Positions 48,924 to 52,430 of a DNA stretch of 64,000 nt are shown in pieces. The stretch lies in contig LUZY01000010.1 in the NCBI GenBank assembly GCA_001603805.1, forward strand, positions 124,001 through 188,000, given 5' to 3'. Origin of the DNA: Deferribacterales bacterium Deferri_01. GTDB taxonomy: Bacteria; Chrysiogenota; Deferribacteres; Deferribacterales; Geovibrionaceae. The position numbers and the translations under genes are program-made. The notes below the pieces were generated by a model. It did not search any database, was not told the origin of the DNA, and saw only the letters and a program-made list of their open reading frames with translations. Positions within the stretch are counted from its first letter, which is position 1, and each line of letters opens with the position of its first letter.

Positions 48924-50588
48924 ATGTCTTATCTTGCTTTAGCCCGAAAACTCAGACCCCAGAATTTTGATGAAATAGTGGCACAGGAATTTGTAGTCAC
49001 TACCCTCAAGAATGCCATAGAGCTGGACAGGCTTGTCCATGCCTATCTTTTCACCGGTCCCAGAGGGGTTGGCAAAACCAGTACGGCGAGAATTTTTGCA
49101 AAAGCGCTTAACTGCCTTGACCCCCAGGGAGTCAACCCCTGCAATAAATGCGAAAACTGCCGTGAGATAACCGACGGCACATCCATGGACGTAATCGAGA
49201 TAGACGGCGCATCCAACAGGGGCATTGACGAAATACGGGATCTCCGTGAGGCTGTGCGTTTTTTCCCTGTAAAGTGCCGTAAAAAAGTCTACATCATAGA
49301 CGAGGTTCACATGCTTACGGAGCAGGCGTTTAATGCTCTGCTCAAAACCCTTGAGGAACCTCCTTCCCATGTGGCGTTTATCCTCGCCACAACAGACGCA
49401 CAGAGGATACCGGCAACAATCATATCAAGATGCCAGAAGTATGACTTCCGCAAGATCCCTTTTGAAAAAATGCATGAATCTCTCACCGATGTGCTTAATA
49501 AAGAAAAGCTGGAATATGAGGATGACGCATTAAGCCTCATCATACGCAATTCCGACGGCTGCATGAGAGACTCCCTCTCCATGCTCGATCAGATAATAGC
49601 CTTCACCGGAGGCAAGGTTGATGAGGCAAACACTGCATTCCTTCTGGGCTTTTCAGATACAAACTTAATTGAAGACCTTCTCAAAACCATCCTTGAGGAA
49701 AACACCGCAGAAATACCTGCCATAGTTGAGGAAATATGTGCCAAAGGCATAAGCCTCCGTTTCGCAGCCGAATCCCTCATTGAACATACACGCAACCTGC
49801 TTTTCTATATATCCACAGGCGGAAAAAACACCAAGGAACTCACCAGCCACGAGGAAGAGCTTTATAAATCTCTTTCGGCAAAAGTCACAGAACACAGGCT
49901 TTTCGCACTGTTTCAAGTTTTTCAAAAACTGCTGAACGACCTTAAATTTTTCAGCTTTGAGCAGTATGTTTTTGAATTTGCCGCATACAAAGCCGCTTCC
50001 CTGTCTTCTGTTCTGCCTGTTTCATGCAGCACGGCAGCACTTACACAGGCTCCCGCAGCACCTGTTAAGCATAAAACTGCGGCGGAAAAGCCTAAACAGC
50101 AGGAACACAAAGAAACCCCCGCACATGCAGAACGTCAGGAAGAGCCGTCAGCAGGTGACGACCCATGGAAAAGCATGGTCCGCCACGCTGCCAGAGAAAA
50201 CGGAAAGGTTGCCGGATATCTGGAAAATGTATTCCTCTCCGGTGTGGCAGGCGATGAACTCCGCATAGGCACGACAGAAGAAAAAAAGTTTTATTTCAGA
50301 ATGCTTAATCAGCCGGAGCATCTTAAATATCTATCAGAGATAGCTGGAAAATTCTTCCCCGGTGTGACTAAAGTTAAAATGGCTCTGGAAAACGAGCCTA
50401 AAAAAAAAACTATAACTGAAACAAAAAAAGAAGCCGAAACCTACTATGATCGCAAAACCAGAAAAGAAGCGGAAGACAACGATCTTGTAAAAAAACTTCA
50501 AAAAGAATTCGGCGCTAAAATTGTTGATATAGAAGTAATTAAGGACATACCTGAGGAAGATATAGAACAGGAAGAAAGCCAGGATTAG
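48924..50588 (+). CDS. dnaX: DNA polymerase III subunits gamma/tau
   Basis: 554 residues. Seen: start MSYLALARKLRPQNFDEIV, Walker A GPRGVGKTSTARIFAKALNC, zinc-binding cysteines (C64 and CNKCENC), Walker B YIIDEVHML, SRC motif ISRCQKYDF, collar domain, then a charged linker rich in A, E, K, P and a C-terminal polymerase-binding part. Known: clamp-loader ATPase and polymerase coupling subunit. Odd: an A10 run at 50400-50409 (codons 493-496) with stops close behind in both other frames, like Thermus dnaX. There is no Shine-Dalgarno before the ATG, and candidate -35/-10 boxes (48884-48912) end about 12 bp before it, so the message may be nearly leaderless. Confidence 0.96.
   Translation: MSYLALARKLRPQNFDEIVAQEFVVTTLKNAIELDRLVHAYLFTGPRGVGKTSTARIFAKALNCLDPQGVNPCNKCENCREITDGTSMDVIEIDGASNRGIDEIRDLREAVRFFPVKCRKKVYIIDEVHMLTEQAFNALLKTLEEPPSHVAFILATTDAQRIPATIISRCQKYDFRKIPFEKMHESLTDVLNKEKLEYEDDALSLIIRNSDGCMRDSLSMLDQIIAFTGGKVDEANTAFLLGFSDTNLIEDLLKTILEENTAEIPAIVEEICAKGISLRFAAESLIEHTRNLLFYISTGGKNTKELTSHEEELYKSLSAKVTEHRLFALFQVFQKLLNDLKFFSFEQYVFEFAAYKAASLSSVLPVSCSTAALTQAPAAPVKHKTAAEKPKQQEHKETPAHAERQEEPSAGDDPWKSMVRHAARENGKVAGYLENVFLSGVAGDELRIGTTEEKKFYFRMLNQPEHLKYLSEIAGKFFPGVTKVKMALENEPKKKTITETKKEAETYYDRKTRKEAEDNDLVKKLQKEFGAKIVDIEVIKDIPEEDIEQEESQD
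50400..50409 (+). promoter_or_regulatory. A10 slippage site in dnaX
   Basis: Ten adenines after codon CCT, read as AAA AAA AAA A(CT). Losing one A gives ...AAA CTA TAA (stop); gaining one gives ...AAC TAT AAC TGA (stop). Products would be about 496 or 498 residues instead of 554. A second run, AAAAAAA at 50423-50429, follows with A_AAA_AAA in frame. Function is inferred from the known Thermus case. Confidence 0.6.
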
Positions 50589-50660
50589 TTTTTTTTTAAT
50601 TTTATTATTCCATTTTGAACCGAAATGATCTAAAACGTCAACCTTCAAACAAAAGGACGT

Positions 50661-52430
50661 ATGAATACTGAAAAACTAAAGGCTAGCCTTTCCAAATTCA
50701 GCCTGAGACGATATCTAGACGGACACGAAGATCTCTACATGCTTCTGACCGCCGTGGTTATAGGTCTGCTCGCAGGCGGCGGAAACATCATCTTCCGCCA
50801 TATGATCAGCTTCTTTCAGGGAATTTTCTACGGAGACACCTCCGAATTCGCACTTGAGACATTCAAAAACGCACCCATATGGAAAATTGTTCTTATCCCT
50901 GCTGCCGGCGGACTGATGGTCGGCTTAATCTCCATATCATTCAAATTTGCCAAAGGGCACGGCGTTCCTGATGTTATGCGTGCCATGGCTCTCAACCGCA
51001 ACATATCGCCCCTTGTGGCTCTTATAAAAACAGTTTCATCCGCAATAACCCTCGGTTCCGGCGGCTCGGCGGGACGTGAAGGTCCCATCGTGCAGATAGG
51101 TGCCGCCATAGGCTCCGGCGTGGGAAAGCTGTTAAGCTTTTCATCCAACAGGATGCGCACAGTTGCGGCATGCGGTGCGGCTGGCGGTCTGGCAGCCACT
51201 TTCAACGCTCCCATAGGCGGGGCTATGTTTGCGGCGGAAGTGCTTCTCGGTGAATTCGGGCTCAAGACATTCAGCCCGATCATTATCTCATCGGTAATAG
51301 CAACAGCCATATCAAGAGCATATCTGGGACATGAGGTAACATTCGACGCTCCGATATACGAACTGGTCAGCATCTTTGAACTTCCCCTTTACGGAGTTCT
51401 GGGGCTTGTTTGCGCAGTTGTGGGCGTTGTATTCATCCGCACTTTCTACTTTATAGAGGGCAAGTTTGAGCATCTTGCCATACCTTCATGGACAAAACCC
51501 GCCATAGGCGGACTGATGATGGGTTGTGTCGCCCTTGCCTCACCGGAAGTAATGGGAGTTGGGTATGACACAATAATGAACGTACTCCATGGGCACCAGT
51601 TGGGCGCTTTTCTAATAATTATTGTAGCACTCAAAATAATCGCAACATCCTTCACTCTGGGTTCAGGGGGAAGCGGCGGTCTCTTTGTCCCCTCCCTTTT
51701 CATAGGCGCTGTTACCGGCGGTTTCTTCGGATGGGCGGCTCACATAATATTTCCTGCAAGCACCGCAGGCAGCGGCGCATACGCTCTAGTGGCGATGAGC
51801 GCCATGCTTTCCGCCACACTGCGTGCGCCCATGACAGCAATACTTATAATATTTGAAATAACACAGTCATATACGGTAATTCTGCCCCTTATGCTTACGG
51901 CTATAGTCGCCAACCTCGCCGCAGAAAAGCTTGAGAAGGAATCTATATTCACATGGGTTCTCACCAAACAGGGAGTACGTATTAAGAAAGGGGTTGAGGA
52001 AAAAATCCTCGAATCGATTCATGTAAAAGACGTTATGTTCACTGGTGTAACATCCTTCAGAGAGAATACACCTTTCCGGGATATTCTCGCAGGGATACAG
52101 TCCGCCCCGCATATGCATTTCCCTGTTCTGGACAGCAACAACTGCCTCATCGGTATGATCTCCCTTGTTGATATCAAAGAAGTGCTGTTTGAGCAGGGGC
52201 TTGAGGATATTGTTGTGGCGGGGGACATCTGCACAAGGGAAAACGTTATCTATCTTGAGCCTGAAAACACCCTGACGGAAGCCATGGAAAAACTCGGCAA
52301 GAAGGATCTGGAAGCTCTCCCTGTTGTGGAAAACACACCTGAAGGATTGAAGTTTCTGGGACTTCTCCGCAGAGGGGATCTTATAATAGCCTACAACAAG
52401 CGTGCCGGACTGGCGGAAGCCTCCGCATAA
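50661..52430 (+). CDS. ClC-family chloride/proton exchanger with C-terminal CBS pair
   Basis: 589 residues. Seen: about 430-residue ClC core with KGHGVPDVMRAMA (the usual GSGIP filter has Ser replaced by His), GSGGSAGREGPIVQIGA carrying the external gate Glu, and GSGGSGGLFVPSL; then two CBS motifs (about 450-585; VKDVMFTGVTSFRENTPFRDI, LEALPVVENTPEGLKFLGLLRR). Known: the retained gating Glu (REGP) marks exchangers more than plain channels. CBS pairs sense adenine nucleotides. AAGGA lies 5 bp before the ATG. It is followed by the convergent rsgA gene's terminator. Confidence 0.94.
   Translation: MNTEKLKASLSKFSLRRYLDGHEDLYMLLTAVVIGLLAGGGNIIFRHMISFFQGIFYGDTSEFALETFKNAPIWKIVLIPAAGGLMVGLISISFKFAKGHGVPDVMRAMALNRNISPLVALIKTVSSAITLGSGGSAGREGPIVQIGAAIGSGVGKLLSFSSNRMRTVAACGAAGGLAATFNAPIGGAMFAAEVLLGEFGLKTFSPIIISSVIATAISRAYLGHEVTFDAPIYELVSIFELPLYGVLGLVCAVVGVVFIRTFYFIEGKFEHLAIPSWTKPAIGGLMMGCVALASPEVMGVGYDTIMNVLHGHQLGAFLIIIVALKIIATSFTLGSGGSGGLFVPSLFIGAVTGGFFGWAAHIIFPASTAGSGAYALVAMSAMLSATLRAPMTAILIIFEITQSYTVILPLMLTAIVANLAAEKLEKESIFTWVLTKQGVRIKKGVEEKILESIHVKDVMFTGVTSFRENTPFRDILAGIQSAPHMHFPVLDSNNCLIGMISLVDIKEVLFEQGLEDIVVAGDICTRENVIYLEPENTLTEAMEKLGKKDLEALPVVENTPEGLKFLGLLRRGDLIIAYNKRAGLAEASA

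Follow-up and report, generated by a model that had tools for sequence, protein, structure and literature searches.

A conserved run of nine to ten adenines with two close off-frame stops marks a probable transcriptional slippage site in dnaX of the Deferribacterota

Introduction

Can a single dnaX gene in the Deferribacterota supply two subunits of the replisome? The question is raised by a run of ten adenines (A10) in the dnaX gene of Deferribacterales bacterium Deferri_01, which lies in the stretch of 64,000 nucleotides analyzed here and called the window. In Escherichia coli, dnaX is recoded by a ribosomal shift of -1 at A AAA AAG. The dnaX of Thermus thermophilus makes use of transcriptional slippage on a run of nine adenines (A9), the work of Larsen et al. 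2000 as recounted in later papers (PMC1088944, PMC5009743, PMC4320859). A sequence-only reading of the window had proposed that the A10 is a slippage signal of the Thermus type. We argue below that, with a probability of roughly 0.8, the run is a site of programmed slippage during transcription that would give both tau and a shorter, gamma-like DnaX.

The dnaX gene and its A10 run

The gene belongs to DnaX by virtue of an AAA+ core together with domain III (TIGR02397, PF12169, PF22608). Its reading frame starts with the ATG at 48924 and ends, stop codon included, at 50588. The match to TIGR02397 (dnaX_nterm) scores 442 bits against a cut-off of 250; in Pfam terms, domain III (PF12169) is present and the match to tau domain V (PF12170) is weak, covering residues 394-533. 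The gene and the elements of the candidate site are as follows.

48924-50588, + strand: dnaX, the full-length tau reading frame of 554 aa (TIGR02397 dnaX_nterm, PF12169, PF12170)
50400-50409, + strand: A10, the putative slippage run, codons 493-496; homologous A9-A10 in relatives, slip-site lysine columns 100% AAA
50413-50415, + strand: TAA reached after loss of one A (or gain of two), giving 496 aa; same-place stop in relatives is TAA, TGA or TAG
50417-50419, + strand: TGA reached after gain of one A (or loss of two), giving 498 aa; in relatives xxT-GAA, xxT-GAG or GTT-AAA

The run is read as AAA AAA AAA A|CT (residues 493-496) and begins at codon 493 of 554, toward the 3' end of the one continuous tau reading frame. 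The TAA follows it at a distance of 6 nt and the TGA at 10 nt; both non-zero frames are thus closed shortly after the run, as at a Thermus-type site, and the slipped products would end in ...KKKL with one A fewer and in ...KKKNYN with one A more. When the sequence was read again, the position of the run, the 554-residue DnaX, the 496-498 residues of the slipped products and the close stops in both frames all proved to be exactly as first described.

Immediately 3' of the dnaX stop there is a run of nine T (50589-50597), where a scan found no terminator-like hairpin, and a gene for a ClC-type chloride channel lies 3' of dnaX at 50661-52430 of the window. The gene after dnaX is ybaB in most of the phylum, a linkage that is broken in family f1.

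What a single genome can tell

The weight of this arrangement was gauged by a simulation in which the protein sequence was kept fixed and each codon was drawn anew from its synonyms according to the usage of dnaX itself. Nine or more consecutive A appeared in 43% of the draws (P = 0.43), both close stops had P = 0.20 once the run was given, and the run together with both stops, in the window genome alone and with the protein as given, had P of about 0.085. A/T runs of nine or more occur 45 times in the genome; nine have a length of exactly 10, and few of the 45 lie well inside long ORFs. From a single genome, the A10 and its stops are weak to modest evidence. They could be the outcome of chance, that is, of lysine-rich, A-rich coding with incidental stops and no programmed slippage, and three consecutive lysines under AAA-biased usage do readily yield an A9. 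The two tight stops had been considered the strongest point of the proposal; within the single genome they are modest evidence, and they become strong only across genera, as described in the next section.

Another in-frame A10 was seen at codon 314 of a 635-aa CheW-like ORF (L097; G000:C9:114592-114601), where the off-frame stops follow at 3 and 11 nt.

Conservation across the phylum

A search of 51 genomes of the phylum gave a strong dnaX match in 48, and the dnaX of 46 were aligned; the named relatives within the family of the source genome are Seleniivibrio and Denitrovibrio, which places the window in the Deferribacterota, its genus probably being Geovibrio. All 12 genomes of family f1 have the A10 in the same phase (A9 in one species), and an A9 or A10 occupies the homologous place in families f2, f3, f7 and f8 and in parts of f4 and f6. 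The phase of the run differs in some relatives, for example GAA AAA AAA AGC in f2 and CTA AAA AAA AAA TCC in G014. Where the site is present, in relatives near or far, no synonymous change was found to break the A9-A10, and the stops are kept in codons that differ.

The choice of lysine codons follows the same pattern. Among 23 dnaX genes from five families, AAA is used at columns 493, 494 and 495 in 20/20, 23/23 and 23/23 of the sequences with lysine there, and these slip-site columns are the only conserved lysine columns without AAG in the 23 genes; the next best is residue 9, with AAA in 21/23, and most of the others are clearly mixed. The dnaX gene L005 has AAG at 25 of its 38 lysines, yet only AAA at the core site: Lys-Lys-Lys is spelled AAA AAA AAA there and AAG AAG AAG five codons downstream.

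The stops are equally persistent. In almost every genus that has the site, the one reached by loss of an A falls 5-8 nt past the run, and it is spelled through CTATAA, CTCTGA, CGGTAA, GCATAA, GTATAG, GCCTGA or GGGTGA; the one reached by gain of an A falls 9-17 nt past the run in most genera with the site, through ACTGAA, ATTGAA, GTTGAA, AGTGAG or GTTAAA. In G016 and G027, at least one of the two stops lies less close to the run. For the ten genera that have the homologous site, with one gene taken per genus, the protein taken as given and the genera that lost the site standing outside the product, the run is present in 10/10 (3.1 expected), the one-A-lost stop in 10/10 (4.8 expected), the one-A-gained stop in 10/10 (4.1 expected) and both stops given the run in 10/10 (1.9 expected). 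The joint log10 P for the run and both stops over these ten genera, treated as independent, is -14.1. It is because of this conservation in relatives, with 10/10 genera keeping the run and both stops, that a case for a slippage site can be made. The comparison indicates that the run is maintained by selection in relatives, as in the Thermus type, and that both stops are selectively maintained with it.

The other long A runs of the genome behave differently. In relatives of the same genus, AAG already interrupts the A9 of coaD and that of cheR; the Lys-Lys-Lys of cheR persists at the protein level in nearly all relatives, and nearly all of them spell it with AAG. Chance is thus very improbable as an account of the dnaX site: it would have to produce ten conserved genera with differing stop codons (log10 P of about -14) next to unconserved control runs, and an all-AAA core site in genes as rich in AAG as L005. 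The conserved run, the stops in differing codons and the failed control runs together support the proposal that this lineage uses dnaX slippage.

The long A runs of coaD and cheR were also considered as further slippage genes, and rejected since the runs are unconserved. In 30 dnaX genes of the Aquificota, a conserved run with two close stops was not found; an A9 occurs in 7/30, at varying positions and, one weak case excepted, with no two close stops.

What the short form would lose

An AlphaFold model of DnaX residues 398-554, built on a 33-sequence alignment, has a mean pLDDT of 71.5 and places the run between two predicted features.

50163-50387, + strand: predicted folded core of domain V, residues 414-488, retained in the short product (model; weak structural matches)
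50442-50510, + strand: two predicted C-terminal helices, residues 507-529, absent from the short product (AlphaFold model)

The core is predicted as helix-helix-strand-strand-helix-helix-strand, with pLDDT of about 86-88 over most of it, and the C-terminal helices cover residues 507-517 and 520-529. The run itself (residues 493-495) falls inside a low-confidence linker, residues 94-107 of the model. None of the matches in a fold search of the model fell below E 0.001; the weak ones include E. coli tau domain V (5fku, 5fkv, 2aya), with E of about 0.1, which agrees with the weak PF12170 match in Pfam.

It had been claimed that a loss of about 57 residues removes the polymerase-binding end. The C-terminal helical segment and tail, which correspond to the alpha-binding end of E. 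coli tau, would indeed be lost, and the claim is refined in that the predicted domain-V core stays. E. coli tau without its last 25 residues binds alpha no better than gamma does (PMC11470591). The same source describes E. coli gamma (431 aa) as lacking domain V completely and domain IV almost completely; in comparison, the short form here would lose only the last 56-58 residues.

The preferred mechanism can be put together from these elements. RNA polymerase would slip on the A10 and release mRNAs with fewer or more A. Transcripts with 10 +/- 3n A would be translated into tau, 554 aa give or take a lysine. In the others, translation would end at the TAA or the TGA, at most 10 nt past the run, and the product would be a gamma-like DnaX of 496 or 498 aa. 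This form would have the ATPase and collar domains and the domain-V core without the C-terminal helical segment and tail, and by analogy it would probably load clamps but not hold polymerase III alpha.

Slippage in RNA or a shift on the ribosome

A shorter DnaX of 498 aa could also be made, as in E. coli, by a programmed -1 ribosomal frameshift on A AAA AAA, from transcripts that are uniform. Every run does contain this heptamer in frame, and the stop that a -1 ribosomal shift would reach, which is the one-A-gained stop, lies 9-17 nt away in most genera. The ribosomal explanation, however, leaves two things unexplained: the stop in the opposite direction, kept in 10/10 genera against 4.8 expected, and the retention of the whole run of 9-10 A. 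It would also leave the more shift-prone A AAA AAG unused at the core site. As to the usual ribosomal stimulators, folding of the 60 and 100 nt downstream of the run in 23 genes gave z-scores scattered around 0, with no sign of a hairpin, consistent structure was not found in the upstream 60 nt of these genes, and neither was a conserved purine-rich Shine-Dalgarno-like element in their upstream 30 nt. We therefore regard ribosomal frameshifting as unlikely, though with a probability that is not negligible.

RNA-polymerase slippage is favored over it because the stops are kept in both directions, because 9-10 A are retained though a ribosomal heptamer needs only 7, and because the hairpin and the conserved Shine-Dalgarno-like element were not found. 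The source genome has a gene for tRNA-Lys(CUU), the presence of which has been tied to slippage rather than to ribosomal shifting in Thermus (PMC5009743).

Relatives with a moved, lost or reversed site

The site is widespread in the phylum; it lies after the domain-V core in most families, and some relatives have it elsewhere or have lost it. Family f10 (G031-G033, three genera), the most distant family of the phylum, which we infer to be the Chrysiogenia, has an A9 in the linker after domain III, at codons 387-396, in dnaX genes of 52-58% GC, each with at least one close stop. The run is likewise in the linker after domain III in G037 (g15) and in g16. The dnaX of G037 (L042) is 448 aa long and without the domain-V core; its A10 and both close stops are kept at codon 402. 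A run at the homologous site is absent in at least five members of the phylum (G021, G038, G015, G035 and G026), so that in these members either slippage at this site would be dispensable as a source of gamma or gamma would be made in another way.

In the four species of g16 (G039-G042), the template polarity is reversed. Their A10 lies at codon 398 and the zero frame ends at 401 aa (KKKR-stop); one extra A would lead into the frame of the tau part, which is 152 aa long. Pairs of these genes differ by 20-28 synonymous and 7-18 nonsynonymous codon changes in the tau ORF, which indicates that it is under purifying selection, and it would be reached only by recoding; judged from their reading frames, some dnaX genes of this phylum thus depend on recoding for their tau. 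As annotations, the split genes of g16 (L037, L039, L040, L041) are likely to be mislabeled as frameshifted or truncated.

The reversed polarity also bears on an explanation in which the run is kept for some other reason, such as a property at the DNA level, and the stops serve to limit the products of accidental slippage. Near off-frame stops would be useful after any slippery run. Known DNA-level properties, however, do not account for an in-frame A10 at this codon, the long coding A runs of coaD and cheR are interrupted in relatives, and in g16 tau itself would need recoding, which makes such damage control improbable.

Polarity may have changed elsewhere as well. Two A9 tracts are found in the dnaX of G043, G045 and G047. 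In the single-contig genome G023 (L026), about 31 nt between two such tracts are missing in comparison with L038, L035 and L036; one A9 is left, the zero-frame stop comes at 508 aa and the tau frame is reached by one extra A. This loss seems to have flipped a gene with tau in frame to one with gamma in frame, from which tau would still be reachable. The dnaX of G009 has an A9 too, and its zero frame stops at 483 aa; a single assembly error is possible there. In most lineages it is tau that the template frame spells, and in g16 and at least one further lineage it is gamma. Tentatively, and at somewhat less than even odds, gamma made by slippage would be ancestral to the phylum, the device being retained while the position of the run and the template polarity shift.

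Comparison with known systems and significance

The closest parallel is the Thermus dnaX, where tau is likewise the product of a single template ORF, off-frame stops lie near the run and two gamma sizes are predicted. The two differ in the length of the run (ten A here, nine in Thermus) and in its stops, 6 and 10 nt after the run here and 2 and 16 codons on in Thermus (PMC4320859); the likeness in location is one of relative position alone, about 7/8 along the gene (PMC1088944). In the Deferribacterota, slippage and gamma are predictions.

Antonov et al. 2013 (PMC3711429) give 17 two-ORF dnaX genes, nine of them with an A10, and regard a mixed direction of shift among orthologs as a sign of transcriptional realignment. 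These genes resemble the present ones in having a poly-A recoding site between the gamma and tau parts, and g16, possibly with G009 and G023, has this arrangement: gamma in the zero frame and tau by recoding. The window dnaX has the opposite polarity, with tau in the template frame, and a search for disrupted ORFs would therefore miss it.

What is shared with E. coli dnaX is the result, a shortened DnaX that lacks the end which binds alpha; this result is a prediction here. Unlike in E. coli, AAG is absent from the core site in all 23 sequences (the window reads AAA AAA AAA), the run is longer, and the hairpin and conserved Shine-Dalgarno-like element were not found.

Among the open-licence papers searched, none on dnaX slippage in the Deferribacterota was found. 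Slippage of the Thermus type in dnaX is already known, poly-A dnaX genes in other phyla were proposed in 2013, and the case of the Deferribacterota is apparently new, with comparative support that is unusually clear. It would add one more phylum to the short list of lineages in which slippage lets one gene supply two subunits of the replisome, and here the comparison of relatives indicates that both the run and its two stops are kept by selection. There is also a warning for annotation, since a dnaX of this phylum that appears "frameshifted" at the poly-A run is probably intact. The natural variants, in which the site is relocated, flipped in polarity or lost, could be used to test why bacteria make gamma at all. 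If the ancestral device has indeed been retained in this way, the mixture of tau and gamma in these bacteria would be set by RNA polymerase, whichever of the two forms the DNA spells.
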